Below are positions 43,379 through 48,363 of a stretch of DNA of 64,000 nucleotides, piece by piece. Source of the DNA: Collinsella sp. An2 (GTDB lineage: Bacteria > Actinomycetota > Coriobacteriia > Coriobacteriales > Coriobacteriaceae). Made by a program: the position numbers and the translations under genes. The notes under the pieces were generated by a model. It was not told the origin of the DNA. It ran no database searches and saw only the letters and a list, made by a program, of their open reading frames with translations. Position 1 is the first letter of the stretch, and each line of letters starts with the position of its first letter. The DNA lies in contig NZ_NFJW01000006.1 of assembly GCF_002160065.1 (NCBI RefSeq), positions 32,001-96,000 of the forward strand. Reading direction: 5' to 3'.

Positions 43379-43500
43379 GCCCCTCCTCCCGGCAAAGCGG
43401 CTGTAAGCCTGCTGCCATTGTACGGGGCCGCCCGGCACGGTATTCGCCGGGCTGCATGCATTTCAGCATTTTTAAGGTCTGGATTGGAGGTGTTGGGAAG

Positions 43501-43696
43501 TTCTATCTTGCTGCAATGTGCACGCTCATCCTTGCGGATGGTCCCATCTTGTCGCAATCCGCACGCTCGTCCTCTGGTACGGTCCTATCCTGCGGCAAAA
43601 CACACGCTCATCCTCTGGCACGCGTCTATCCTGTGGCAAAACACACGCTCGTCCTTGGACACGGTCCTGTTATGTAGCAAAACGCACGCTCAGGCC
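43501..43696. repeat. 41-bp tandem repeat array, about 4.8 copies
   Basis: Units begin with CACGCTC at 43521, 43562, 43603, 43644 and 43685, exactly 41 bases apart; units 2-4 share the tail TGTGGCAAAACA or close variants (GCGGCAAAACA, GTAGCAAAACG). A half unit precedes (43501-43520). Because 41 is not a multiple of three, coding is unlikely. Just after the array (43705-43770) two copies of the tail-plus-head junction recur in the opposite orientation (GCGTGTG followed by ATTGCCACA). Confidence 0.85.
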
Positions 43697-43865
43697 ACCC
43701 AAAACGGCCCTTGAGCGTGTGAATTGCCACAGTTCTCAAACCGTGCGTGTGGATTGCCACAAAACAGAGAGGCACATTCCCCTCGCCAGTCCTTCCGGCT
43801 CCCAACAAAACTACAAAACAGGGAGACACGCTCGGCACACCAACACTTCCAACCTCTAACAAAAA

Positions 43866-43900
43866 GGGGCGGCCCCGGAATGAACTTCCAGAGCCGCCCC
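43866..43900 (-). terminator. Intrinsic terminator of the adhesin-regulator operon
   Basis: Arms GGGGCGGC and GCCGCCCC with partial pairing inside; on the minus strand it is followed by TTTTTGTT. It lies 28 bp after the stop of the winged-helix gene, marking the end of the phase-variable transcript. Confidence 0.8.
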
Positions 43901-43927
43901 TAAAGGTGCTGCTTGTTTTCCGGTGGG

Positions 43928-44278
43928 CTATCTCGTAACGATGCGCCCGGCCGCCCGCTCTCTCAGCAGTTCTTCTGCACGCGTGATGCCGGCCTGCGTC
44001 GCCCGATACGTATTGCCCAGCTGTGCACCCGACGCATCGAACGAAGGAGTGGAGACAATCTGCCCTGCGCGCCTCAACTTGGTGAGGGCTCGGTCGACCA
44101 TCCTATCGCAGCAGCCCAGCTTCTGCGCGAGCTCTCGCTTTCTCATTGCAAGGGAACCGGATACCACCGTTTCCTGAACAATGAGCTCAAGCACCCGCTC
44201 GTGCACAAACGCATGACGACCGCATGCATGTCCGTTCGTAGCTTCGGGCTCAGCAACCACTCCATTCGTTTCGTCCAT
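43928..44278 (-). CDS. Small winged-helix regulator behind the adhesin
   Basis: A 116-aa protein. Residues 28-100 form a winged helix: VLELIVQETVVSGSLAMRKRELAQKLGCCDRMVDRALTKLRRAGQIVSTP, then a wing and a closing helix (TQAGITRAEELLRERA). The lead contains GHACGRHAF. GGAG in the last adhesin codons precedes its ATG, and only 4 bp separate it from the adhesin stop, so it shares the adhesin transcript. I infer that its expression is switched together with the adhesin; its target is unknown. Confidence 0.75.
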   Translation of the reverse strand: MDETNGVVAEPEATNGHACGRHAFVHERVLELIVQETVVSGSLAMRKRELAQKLGCCDRMVDRALTKLRRAGQIVSTPSFDASGAQLGNTYRATQAGITRAEELLRERAAGRIVTR

Positions 44279-44282
44279 GGTG

Positions 44283-47147
44283 CTACGCTCCGTGCTTTTT
44301 CACGTACAGCGAGACACCGATCAGCGCCGCTCCGGCAACAACGACGATGCCAACCACGAAGGGAACCATATCGCCCGTGTGAGGCAGCGTCGGCCCGCTC
44401 GGCGTGGTGGTCTCGACAGGAGGCTCGGCCGTAGGCGTGTAAACGTTGACGAACGTCGGCAGGTCGGTGAGATAGGTGCTCTCACCGTGCTTCTGCACCG
44501 TGTATTGGGCAGAAAGCTCGCCCTTGCCGTTGTCGGTCACCGTAACGGTGATGTCAAACACGGCGCCGTCGTAGGTGACGCCTTCCTGACCGTCGTTGAC
44601 CTCGGCGAGGGTGTAGTGATAAGCTCCGGCCTTCTTGTACTCAAGCACCGGGAACGCGAAGCTGCCGTCGGCGGCGTTGGTAACGGTTGCCAAAACCGAG
44701 CCGGCCTCGTCCTTGAGTTCGAAGGTGAACTGTCCGGCCTCGAGGCTACCGCCCTGGAGCTCCTTCTTAGCGCCCACCGTCACCGTAGTGCCCGTGGTGT
44801 CGTACACGTTCGTGAAGGTTGCATTGTTGCCCGTGACCTTCGCAACATACTTGGTGCCGCTCTTGGTCACGGTGACTACGACCTTGTAGGTCGCCTCGTC
44901 GTAGGTGATGCCGTCCTTCTGAACGCCCGGCGTGTTCGGATCGTCGTCCGTAGGCAGAACCTCGCTCACCACGTAGGTGTGCTCGCCTGTGGCCTTGAAG
45001 GTCTGCTCCGGGAAGGTCACGTTGCCGTTGGCGTCGTTGGTAGCCGTGGCGATGACCTTGCCGGTCTCGTCCACCAGCTGGAACGTGAACTGTCCAGCCT
45101 TAAGGTCGGCGCCCTTGAGCACCTTGTCGGCAGAGATGGTCACATCAGCCGGCGTGGTGGGCGTAGGAGTGGGTGTGGTGCCGCCGCCAGGTTCAGGGCT
45201 GGGTTCGGAGTTCTTCGTGTTAGTGATGGTAACGGTGTAATTACCATCTTCGCCCGTGACCGTATCACCGACTGTTGAGGTGTATCCCTCAACAGTCGTA
45301 AGCTCCTTAACCGCGTACTCGCCTTCGGGAAGATTTGTGAATTGCGCAGTCCAGCCATTCTCCTGGTTGAGATTGACGGTATCGAGCTGATAACCATCAG
45401 AGACAAGCGCTACCTCCACCTCAGGAAGCGTGGCGTCCTCAGAAACGCCTTCCCAAACCTTTTTTACAGTAAGCGTATGCTCGGTGACACCGGTCTCTGG
45501 GCTGGGAGCAGTTCCGATGATGACGCTGCCGTTAGCACCAACGCCAGCGCCACGGTTTGCCTGGTTTCCCGTGATAATCAGCTTGGCATTGTTATTTGCC
45601 ACTGCCTGCGCATCCTCGCTCATACTAGAGACCAGCGCGTAGCTCTGGCCCGCAACGTTGACATCAGTCACAGCATCACCCGGGTTGGACGCGTCATAAC
45701 GCGGCGTGCCATCAGAAACACCCAGATAATACATGCCGGTACCATCAAGACCCTCGCCCTTGTCGTTGGTTGCGTAGACGCCACCATCGTTGTAATAGGT
45801 GACCCTACCGCCACCAAGAGCGCGCATGGCAATGGAGAAGTCCTGGATACCCTCATCGTCGTCATGCTTGACAAATGCAAGGTCGGCACCGGCCGAACCT
45901 GTCTCGTCGCCCGAAGCGGTATTGCCGAAGACCGCGCCGCCGTTGGTAACGTAGACGCGCATGTCGCCGGTCGAGCAGGTCCAGATGCCGCCGCCGATCT
46001 TCTCCGCATTGTTGCCCGTTACCACAACGTTCTTAAGATTGACCTCCTGGCCGCGGACCACATAGATGCCGCCGCCCTGACGAGACGCCACGTTGTTTTC
46101 GATTCGGCCACCGGAGAGCTCAACATCACATGCCCAATCGGTGTTCTGGATACCGGTAAGGTACACGCCGGCACCGTACATAGACTTGTTGCCCGAAATG
46201 GTGCCACCCGTCATGTTGAATTTCGCGGTTGGGTTTGCCACCAGAGCAATGCCGCCGCCGTAGAACTGCCCCTCGTTGCCGGAAATCGTACCACCCGTCA
46301 TCTCGAGGTCGCCATTGACGATGTAGACGCCGCCGGCGTAGTAGGAATCGCCGTACGTGTTGTTGCAGATCTCGCCGCCGGACAGGTTGACCTTGCCGGG
46401 ATGCGCAAGATCGGAGTTGCTACCGATGTACAGACCGCATGAATCGTTGTTGGAAATGCTGCCGCCGCTCATATTAAGCACGCCATTAGATTCTGTGCCA
46501 TTCTTAACAGAGACAACACCTGAAGCACCCTGAGGGTCCTTCACGTAGCAGCCGGAAATCGTACCATCGGAAAAATCAAACACCGATCCCGGAGCAACGT
46601 ACACGATTCCCTGATAGTTACCACCCGTGAGCTGGCAGTCCGCAATGGAGCCGCCCTCCATGATGAAGTGGCCGCCGTCAGCAACGTACACAACACCACG
46701 CCCGGTCGCGCTGCCCGAGTTGATAACGTTCGCAATAGAGCCGCTCTTCAGATCAAGCGAACCGCCAACATAGATCATGCTGCCGGTATCAGCACCGTAA
46801 TTGCAGTCCTGTTGATTGCCATCAAGCGTTACGCCGTCAATCGTGAGCGTAGCACCTTCAGAAATAGCCAGAGGTGCCAGGCTCTCGCCCTTTTCAAAGC
46901 TATCCGCTAGCTTGATGGTGCCCGTGCCATTAAGCGTGACGTCTTTCTTCACGGTAACCGGCTGCTTAAGCTCAATATCGCCGGTAACCGTAACGTCACC
47001 GCCAGCTTCGATGGCCGCAATAAAGCCAGCCTCATCTGTCACCTCGGCAGCAAAAGCCTTCCCCGGAGAGAAGGCCGTCACCGCCAGTAAGAGCACGGCA
47101 AGGGTGGCGAACAACCTCCCAACCGTTCTCCGTAATGTTTCTCCCAT
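44283..47147 (-). CDS. LPXTG-anchored adhesin with beta-helix and pilin isopeptide domains
   Basis: A 954-aa surface protein. Signal peptide 1-33 (ending AFA); a parallel beta-helix at about 36-545 with GGxI/SGGxIxxN turns; a Cna-B domain at 555-647; two FctA-type pilin isopeptide domains at 668-783 and 788-904; sortase signal LPHTG at 921-925; membrane span and tail KKHGA. The isopeptide triads are visible: Lys675, Glu729, Asn780, and Lys795 or 796, Glu849, Asn901. GGAAGGAG precedes the ATG. A stem GCGAACAG/CTGTTTGC sits just upstream of the ribosome site. Its promoter region is bounded by inverted repeats; see the switch. Confidence 0.92.
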   Translation of the reverse strand: MGETLRRTVGRLFATLAVLLLAVTAFSPGKAFAAEVTDEAGFIAAIEAGGDVTVTGDIELKQPVTVKKDVTLNGTGTIKLADSFEKGESLAPLAISEGATLTIDGVTLDGNQQDCNYGADTGSMIYVGGSLDLKSGSIANVINSGSATGRGVVYVADGGHFIMEGGSIADCQLTGGNYQGIVYVAPGSVFDFSDGTISGCYVKDPQGASGVVSVKNGTESNGVLNMSGGSISNNDSCGLYIGSNSDLAHPGKVNLSGGEICNNTYGDSYYAGGVYIVNGDLEMTGGTISGNEGQFYGGGIALVANPTAKFNMTGGTISGNKSMYGAGVYLTGIQNTDWACDVELSGGRIENNVASRQGGGIYVVRGQEVNLKNVVVTGNNAEKIGGGIWTCSTGDMRVYVTNGGAVFGNTASGDETGSAGADLAFVKHDDDEGIQDFSIAMRALGGGRVTYYNDGGVYATNDKGEGLDGTGMYYLGVSDGTPRYDASNPGDAVTDVNVAGQSYALVSSMSEDAQAVANNNAKLIITGNQANRGAGVGANGSVIIGTAPSPETGVTEHTLTVKKVWEGVSEDATLPEVEVALVSDGYQLDTVNLNQENGWTAQFTNLPEGEYAVKELTTVEGYTSTVGDTVTGEDGNYTVTITNTKNSEPSPEPGGGTTPTPTPTTPADVTISADKVLKGADLKAGQFTFQLVDETGKVIATATNDANGNVTFPEQTFKATGEHTYVVSEVLPTDDDPNTPGVQKDGITYDEATYKVVVTVTKSGTKYVAKVTGNNATFTNVYDTTGTTVTVGAKKELQGGSLEAGQFTFELKDEAGSVLATVTNAADGSFAFPVLEYKKAGAYHYTLAEVNDGQEGVTYDGAVFDITVTVTDNGKGELSAQYTVQKHGESTYLTDLPTFVNVYTPTAEPPVETTTPSGPTLPHTGDMVPFVVGIVVVAGAALIGVSLYVKKHGA

Positions 47148-47208
47148 GGTTCTCCTTCCGTCGTCGCAAACAGAAAATGCCTGTTCGCAGGCCGTGTTTG
47201 ACGGTCAA

Positions 47209-47232
47209 CAACGGAATGGGCGTTCCGTTGCT
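47209..47232 (+). repeat. Left inverted repeat (recombination site) of the switch
   Basis: 24 bases, exact inverse of 47414-47437. Core CAACGGAA-TGGGCG-TTCCGTTG: 8-bp inverted arms around an asymmetric 6-bp spacer, the form of Xer-type recombinase sites. The asymmetric spacer gives the site a direction, as needed for inversion. Confidence 0.85.
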
Positions 47233-47252
47233 AGGTGGAGATTGGGGTGACT

Positions 47253-47290
47253 AAAAATGAAAAACGACCCGCGCAAATAGCGACAGGTCG
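47253..47290 (-). terminator. Intrinsic terminator inside the invertible segment, facing the adhesin
   Basis: On the minus strand, CGACCTGT and GCGGGTCG form an 8-bp stem (two G-U pairs), 10-base loop, followed by TTTTTCATTTTTAG. In the present orientation it would stop transcripts running from the segment toward the adhesin. Confidence 0.6.
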
Positions 47291-47350
47291 AGGTATCGGC
47301 CGCGCGAGGGCCCGGCAGCCGGAAGGGATTTACGGGCTTTGTGCTAAAAT

Positions 47351-47380
47351 TTGGCTACATTTGTCTGCAAGGTATATATT
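47351..47380 (+). promoter_or_regulatory. Promoter candidate inside the invertible segment
   Basis: TTGGCT (47351-47356) is followed after 16 bases by TATATA (47373) or after 18 by TATATT (47375). It points rightward, away from the adhesin. The reverse strand also offers TTTACC (47400-47395) 16 bases from the same TATATA, so direction is not settled by boxes alone. Confidence 0.5.
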
Positions 47381-47413
47381 TCTTCATATCCGCAGGTAAA
47401 TGGGGTGTTAGCC

Positions 47414-47437
47414 AGCAACGGAACGCCCATTCCGTTG
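47414..47437 (-). repeat. Right inverted repeat (recombination site) of the switch
   Basis: Exact 24-bp inverse of 47209-47232. Here the arms extend to 10 bp (AGCAACGGAA and TTCCGTTGCT) around spacer CGCCCA. It lies 75 bp from the recombinase stop codon. Confidence 0.85.
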
Positions 47438-47455
47438 CTTTTATTTCGGCTCACA

Positions 47456-47477
47456 GAGACGCAACGGGCGGCGTCTC
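47456..47477 (-). terminator. Hairpin between recombinase and switch
   Basis: GAGACGC and GCGTCTC, 8-base loop, 34 bp after the recombinase stop (minus strand). No T run follows. It may insulate the switch from recombinase transcription. Confidence 0.4.
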
Positions 47478-47511
47478 AACGAGCCTCGGACTCAGTCCTC
47501 AGCAGACGCAG

Positions 47512-48363
47512 CTAGACGAATCCCAAGCATGAAACCTGGCGGCGCCGTTCGGCTTCATCTTCCGCCAAATACAATCGCGTCGTCTCCAATCGGGCATGGC
47601 CTAACAGGACGCTCAAAGATTCCAGATCGCGATGCACCCGTTGAAACGTCGTGGCAAACAGATGCCGGAGTGCATGCGGAAACACGCGACGTACTTCGAT
47701 GCCGGCAAGGCGCGCGAGCTCCTTGAGAATGCGCCACACCCGCGTACGATCGATCGGGTTGCCGCTTCGCGTCACAAACACCGGGCCCGACCGTATCTTC
47801 TGCCGAAACACATGGATCGTGAGCAACTTGCAGAGCCGCTCGGGAAACCAAACGCGACGCGTCCTCCCCTTGTTTCTCACCACGGCGTAGCCCACGCGTA
47901 CGGCATCCACCGTCACCGCTTCAAGCTCGCTGACGCGAATGCCTGTCGAACAGAGCGTCTGTACCAGAAGCGCCTCCACGTTGTCGCCCTTATTGTGGGC
48001 AGCTTTGACAAGCTTTTTATAATCGGCCTTTGTAATGCCGTCGACCGCACAGCGCGGCATGGGCTGCACGCGAAGACGACGCAGCTTGAGCTCGGAGTGC
48101 CCTACAAACGCGAGGAAGCCGTTGACTGCCGCAATGGCGGTGTTTGCTCCCGAAGGAGCGCGTTCTTCCAACAGCTTTGCCTTATACGCAAGAACATCCT
48201 CGCGGCCAATCTCCGCCGCCGAGCCCACGCAGCGTTCGCTGGCGAACGCTGCAAAGTAACGCGCCTCGCGCAGATAGCGCTCAACGGTCGCCGGAGCGGC
48301 CTCCCTGTGCACCAGATACTGTTCCCACCGCGCAACCTCCGGCCAATGCTCTCGCTGCGTCAT
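47512..48363 (-). CDS. Tyrosine recombinase (Xer family), likely DNA invertase of the switch
   Basis: A 283-aa integrase-family recombinase. The SAM-like core-binding domain is residues 8-92. The catalytic set is complete: Arg143 (TGIRVSEL), Lys165 (RNKGRTRR), His230 and Arg233 (FPHALRH), His256 (LLGHARLETT) and nucleophile Tyr265 (RLYLAED). Length is that of XerC/D, without the N-terminal arm-binding domain of phage integrases. It lies 75 bp from the right repeat, transcribed toward the switch. Sites with 8-bp arms and a 6-bp spacer fit this family. No phage genes surround it. Confidence 0.92.
   Translation of the reverse strand: MTQREHWPEVARWEQYLVHREAAPATVERYLREARYFAAFASERCVGSAAEIGREDVLAYKAKLLEERAPSGANTAIAAVNGFLAFVGHSELKLRRLRVQPMPRCAVDGITKADYKKLVKAAHNKGDNVEALLVQTLCSTGIRVSELEAVTVDAVRVGYAVVRNKGRTRRVWFPERLCKLLTIHVFRQKIRSGPVFVTRSGNPIDRTRVWRILKELARLAGIEVRRVFPHALRHLFATTFQRVHRDLESLSVLLGHARLETTRLYLAEDEAERRRQVSCLGFV

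Follow-up and report, generated by a model that had tools for sequence, protein, structure and literature searches.

The window analyzed is a 64,000-nucleotide stretch of a contig from Collinsella sp. An2. A tyrosine recombinase gene, a short intergenic segment bounded by inverted repeats, a gene for an LPXTG-type surface protein, and a small winged-helix gene lie in succession within it (Table 1). The initial annotation of this DNA had described a perfect 24-bp inverted repeat, made of 8-bp dyads around a 6-bp spacer and enclosing 181 bp; a complete Xer-type recombinase about 75 bp away; and a sortase-anchored adhesin beside the segment. All three were recovered. The two 24-nt arms are 100% complementary; the recombinase reading frame is intact, matches PF00589, and has its stop codon 74 bp from the right repeat; and the surface protein has a signal peptide, a Cna_B domain, two FctA domains, and an LPHTG tail, consistent with a role as an adhesin. 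The same genome encodes three sortases at other loci. The winged-helix gene begins after a gap of 4 bp, and its modelled product (AlphaFold, pLDDT 74) has a fold matching MarR/PadR structures and may act as a regulator. Degenerate ~60-bp repeats with the core GCAAAACACACGCTC, some of them inverted, occupy positions 43500-43740, between two-component genes and the end of the cassette. Rfam gave no match within the window.

Table 1. Features of the recombinase-adhesin locus (window positions; strand "." where the feature has none)
Feature	Position	Strand	Details
Predicted terminator closing the adhesin-regulator operon	43857..43905	-	-33.7 kcal/mol, z -7.1, then TTTTTGTT
Small winged-helix protein (MarR/PadR-like fold)	43928..44278	-	AlphaFold model; homologues in the same place in L047, L018, and L048
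Putative LPHTG surface adhesin, 954 aa	44283..47147	-	Signal peptide, GG-rich repeat region, Cna_B, two FctA/pilin isopeptide domains, sortase tail
Left inverted repeat/putative recombination site	47209..47232	.	CAACGGAA-TGGGCG-TTCCGTTG
Putative invertible segment, 181 bp	47233..47413	.	Perfect repeats at both borders; equivalent segments in relatives
Predicted internal intrinsic terminator facing the adhesin	47257..47290	-	-16.2 kcal/mol, z -5.3, then TTTTT
Promoter-like site, sigma-70-like	47351..47380	+	TTGGCT-18-TATATT; directed away from the adhesin in the assembly; predicted OFF
Right inverted repeat/putative recombination site	47414..47437	.	CAACGGAA-CGCCCA-TTCCGTTG
Right repeat as predicted terminator hairpin with T-tract, for the outward promoter	47414..47445	+	-14 kcal/mol, z -5.6
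Tyrosine recombinase, 283 aa, presumed invertase of the adjoining segment	47512..48363	-	PF00589, E=1.2e-22; catalytic residues invariant; clade with the other three CAACGGAA-site recombinases, support 99/96

The locus has two features of a recombinase-linked inverton: inverted repeats surround an intergenic segment, and the intact recombinase that adjoins it has relatives showing the same association. A simple calculation gives a chance expectation of ~1e-7 per 64 kb for a perfect 24-bp inverted pair spaced within 300 bp. An exact-site search of the genome found two perfect copies only, both at the cassette (controls, 0), and viral contigs contained no exact match. The assembly contains no sequence of the segment in the alternative orientation.

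The initial annotation had suggested looking for the cassette in related genomes, and the same four-part arrangement was found in four of the 397 genomes from the order, probably Coriobacteriales. Site pairs occurred in exactly these four, namely, the window's own genome (G000), G150, G126, and G025, and these also gave the four best recombinase matches in the order; in the search, the recombinases of the last three were 62, 49, and 52% identical to that of the window, respectively (overall range, 47 to 62%). Seven further genomes each had a single site with one mismatch, which is at chance level. The spacers (TGGGCG, TTGGCG, TGGGTG, and TATTCG, in the same order of genomes) differ among genomes and are identical inside each pair, and this identity persists despite changes in the arms (CAACAGAA in G150 and CAATGGAA in G025). 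Identity of the spacers within a pair is a requirement of strand exchange in the spacer. In all four loci the recombinase is followed by the inverton, the LPXTG protein, and the winged-helix gene, with order and direction kept and the surroundings different. The four winged-helix proteins are true homologues, since leave-one-out profiles recover each of them (E values of 1e-7 to 1e-12). Comparison of the segment with those of the nearest relatives (L048 left out) revealed no alignable inversion.

Other cassettes of the order differ in what they appear to control. Those at L049, L050, and L019 switch runs of genes that, on reading of their sequences, are LPXTG pilin-like; at L049 and L050, the first gene past the inverton resembles, on the same basis, an Rrf2-type regulator. 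In three genomes of family f4 (L051:8769-9083, L052:7230-7577, and L054:8357-8796), a c-di-GMP-I riboswitch (RF01051) lies past a homologous inverton and precedes SipW-like signal peptidase and TasA/CalY-like genes, the genes being named by sequence resemblance only. These loci have a common promoter (TTGCAA-17-CATAAT), directed toward the target in two and away from it in one, an arrangement in which control by DNA inversion would be in series with control by c-di-GMP.

The catalytic residues of the window recombinase (R143, K165, H230, R233, H256, and Y265) do not vary across 12 aligned homologues. The protein scored best with XerA/XerC/D models and weakly with models of ~200-aa tyrosine-type DNA invertases (8e-7). 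In a phylogenetic tree, from which the mis-framed row L006 was disregarded, the four CAACGGAA-site recombinases form a single clade (support, 99/96), nested in a larger family of inverton-linked recombinases that is separate from the genome's own Xer-type proteins. Type I hsdS-like loci with distant recombinases (L021, L022, L024, L058, and L060-L065) form a separate clade and were kept apart; these loci, named hsdS-like from reading of their sequences, contain repeated and inverted gene copies. A search for related loci in genome contigs and viral contigs with the single recombinase gave no match. In vivo, the window recombinase might lack activity or depend on host factors.

The best 80 matches to an alignment query came only from Clostridia, other Bacillota, or unassigned metagenome-assembled genomes. 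The clostridial loci, with recombinases 35 to 46% identical to that of the window, have the same layout. In 61 of 62 clostridial homologues with enough flanking sequence, a perfect inverted pair of at least 13 bp starts 9 to 99 bp past the recombinase; random 900-bp windows from the same loci gave such a pair in 116 of 1,000 cases. Between L111 and L156, the recombinase is collinear at 83% identity and the segment is inverted (80% identity over 199 bp); the pairs L106/L156, L087/L091, and L089/L116 likewise have collinear recombinases and segments in opposite orientations. Because close clostridial pairs carry the segment in opposite orientations beside collinear recombinases, we concluded that this recombinase family inverts DNA. 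A sigma-70 promoter, often TTGACA-17-TATAAT, outscored shuffled sequences (P ≤ 0.05) in 60 of 78 family segments. At L080, L081, L128, L137, and L145, the gene apparently switched encodes not a surface protein but a helicase whose helicase-associated (HA) domains are repeated.

These data bear on a different reading of the locus, in which the repeats serve only to end transcription or, as palindromes, to bind a regulator, and the recombinase is an integrase that belongs to a mobile island and has no connection with them. The right repeat does resemble a terminator, and the absence of the region from the congener G001 would fit a mobile insertion: there, 77 bp separate a helicase gene from a decayed response-regulator remnant, compared with 5.4 kb at that place in the window genome. 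G002 has no match to the two-component genes in the stretch fetched, and both available congeners lack the cassette, which was therefore gained in the window genome or lost in the congeners. Against an integrase, however, the left and right copies are identical across all 24 bp, including the asymmetric spacer; spacers vary among genomes but never inside a pair; paired sites follow the recombinase subfamily; equivalent segments are inverted between close homologues; and inverted sites make excision of the cassette impossible. We rejected this reading, which we regard as very improbable, on spacer identity, the tracking of sites with the recombinase subfamily, and the inverted equivalent segments. 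The earlier proposal that inversion switches the adhesin together with a cotranscribed regulator is, in turn, supported by the co-occurrence of recombinase and sites and by within-pair spacer identity, as well as by the kept gene order and the presence of both orientations among homologous cassettes. We concluded that the locus is, with high probability, a cis-acting phase variation cassette in which the recombinase inverts a promoter segment that drives the adhesin and the regulator, and inversion would be expected in the window strain itself.

In this cassette, the recombinase would bind both CAACGGAA-N6-TTCCGTTG sites, and strand exchange inside the 6-bp spacer would invert the 181-bp segment. 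The locus is probably OFF in the assembly, because the best promoter points away from the adhesin and the internal terminator faces it. In the OFF orientation, the promoter would fire toward the 3′ end of the recombinase gene and be halted at the right repeat, where the hairpin is followed, in the direction of the promoter, by the T-tract TTTTATTT; the internal terminator is predicted to stop read-through coming from the recombinase side and would so shield the adhesin. C. difficile cwpV has terminator logic of this kind in its OFF state. In the ON orientation, the promoter, if active, would pass the left repeat, which has the hairpin without a T-tract, and read into the adhesin and winged-helix genes with a leader of ~110 nt before the adhesin ATG; the transcript would end at the terminator common to both genes. 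A weak hairpin, GCCTG-CGAA-CAGGC followed by ATTTTCTGTT, lies on the minus strand at positions 47179-47192, in the stretch that separates the left repeat from the beginning of the adhesin gene, and is a possible attenuator.

The window promoter score, 10.1, is marginal (P of about 0.07 versus dinucleotide shuffles), and promoter predictions are weak in the segments of the three nearest relatives. A modest score, together with an assembly in the predicted OFF state that has no alternative-orientation sequence, would also suit a decayed or locked switch, formerly invertible and now fixed OFF in this strain. Yet the repeats are perfect, the catalytic residues are intact, and the adhesin and regulator frames are open; moreover, OFF is the commoner state across family assemblies, since 48 of the 56 segments with a clear promoter direction point away from the target and 8 point toward it. 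We consider a locked switch improbable. More improbable still is that the segment governs something besides the adhesin, such as antisense control or autoregulation of the recombinase. The assembly promoter does point at the 3′ end of the recombinase gene, 132 bp off, but the hairpin with its T-tract lies directly past this promoter, and a surface or secreted gene is the conserved downstream partner in many family cassettes. An invertible promoter for the adhesin and winged-helix genes is the reading we retain.

The winged-helix family extends well beyond the cassettes. Of the 397 genomes in the order, 97 gave profile matches to it, with several members per genome, and 18 of 39 matches that were read start within about 115 nt past an LPXTG gene. 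Among these 18 are members from three of the four founding cassettes and, on contig C12 of the window's own genome, three of four paralogues. Elsewhere, few LPXTG tails occur: the recombinase loci have 12 in 378 kb, mostly in cassette targets. Given this prevalence, adjacency, and sparsity, we infer that LPXTG and winged-helix genes form an established pair in the order, to which the recombinase switch was joined. In many genomes, winged-helix genes lie directly past LPXTG genes with no recombinase switch seen (L198, L199, and L168-L197). The homologues behind other LPXTG genes hint at a network like that of MrpJ. Tentatively, and with the balance against it, the winged-helix protein may be an MrpJ-like trans-acting regulator, made with the adhesin in the ON state and acting on other LPXTG–winged-helix operons in the genome.

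Mpi is a master invertase that acts in trans. The initial annotation had placed the locus alongside Mpi-type systems of gut Bacteroides, but these are not the closest parallel: the window switch is cis-acting and uses one recombinase, like mrpI and the clostridial invertons. A global invertase of the Mpi type was rejected because the genome's only two perfect sites are both at the cassette. In Proteus mirabilis, a 252-bp element is inverted by MrpI alone, the operon ends with mrpJ, and 10 of the 17 fimbrial operons contain mrpJ-type genes (PMC9820224). The locus matches the mrp architecture, with a sole tyrosine recombinase, one invertible promoter between it and the adhesin operon, and a MarR-like regulator gene last, and in both cases related regulators also end other adhesin operons (PMC9820224). 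The match is one of architecture only. The mrp target is a chaperone-usher fimbria rather than an LPXTG protein, the mrp recombinase is FimB-like whereas that of the window is closest to XerA/XerC/D models, and the orientation of the recombinase gene may differ. Descent from the mrp/fim family was rejected, given the higher scores with Xer-type models and the sortase-type target; the likeness to mrpI–mrpA…mrpJ is probably convergence.

Other switches share fewer elements. In E. coli fimB/fimE-fimS and ipuA-ipuS-upaE, a tyrosine recombinase also adjoins an invertible adhesin promoter (PMC9820224, PMC6083910), but the repeats are 7 to 9 bp, there are two or more recombinases, the adhesins are Gram-negative, and ipuS overlaps a recombinase gene. 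C. difficile cwpV and other invertible switches likewise control Gram-positive surface proteins by inversion; RecV, which acts on the flg and cmr switches, differs in serving several sites and lying outside any one-locus cassette (PMC2784873, PMC9286219). A 2025 survey reported that gut Actinobacteriota carry invertons and that, in Clostridia, invertons and invertases are strongly paired (PMC11892184). As in the window, the recombinase-linked invertons of Clostridia, including inverton group 139/invertase group 35, have a tyrosine recombinase encoded beside the inverton (PMC11892184), and these groups may correspond to the family of the window recombinase. The clostridial sites, however, are mostly of the ACATAAT type rather than CAACGGAA, and the targets are varied (BspA-type LRR proteins, SLH proteins, helicases, and signal peptidases) and have no winged-helix partner.

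The initial annotation had called such a cassette unusual in an actinobacterium. This holds for the exact subtype, found in only those 4 genomes of 397, but not for the wider cassette type, which occurs in 11 genomes of the order, nor for invertons in general, which are reported from gut Actinobacteriota (PMC11892184). We found no paper on invertons in this order in the literature searched. Invertible promoters that adjoin tyrosine recombinase genes are a familiar arrangement. Judged against the same literature, the novel elements are the CAACGGAA subtype, the four-part architecture of its cassette, and the pairing of LPXTG and winged-helix genes.

A recombinase with an inverton directly downstream thus appears as a large conserved module in Clostridia and in this actinobacterial order. 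The cassette would offer, from a gut lineage that has received little study, a clean and portable switch of one enzyme and two sites; the whole circuit of recombinase, sites, promoter, terminators, adhesin, and regulator fits in less than 5 kb. It would extend mrpI–mrpJ-style adhesin control to Gram-positive gut bacteria, apparently by convergence, and it makes testable the idea that a regulator coexpressed with a phase-variable adhesin coordinates other LPXTG loci. If that idea is true, inversion at one locus would set which surface proteins the cell displays, and an adhesin network of that kind would be a first for this actinobacterial group.
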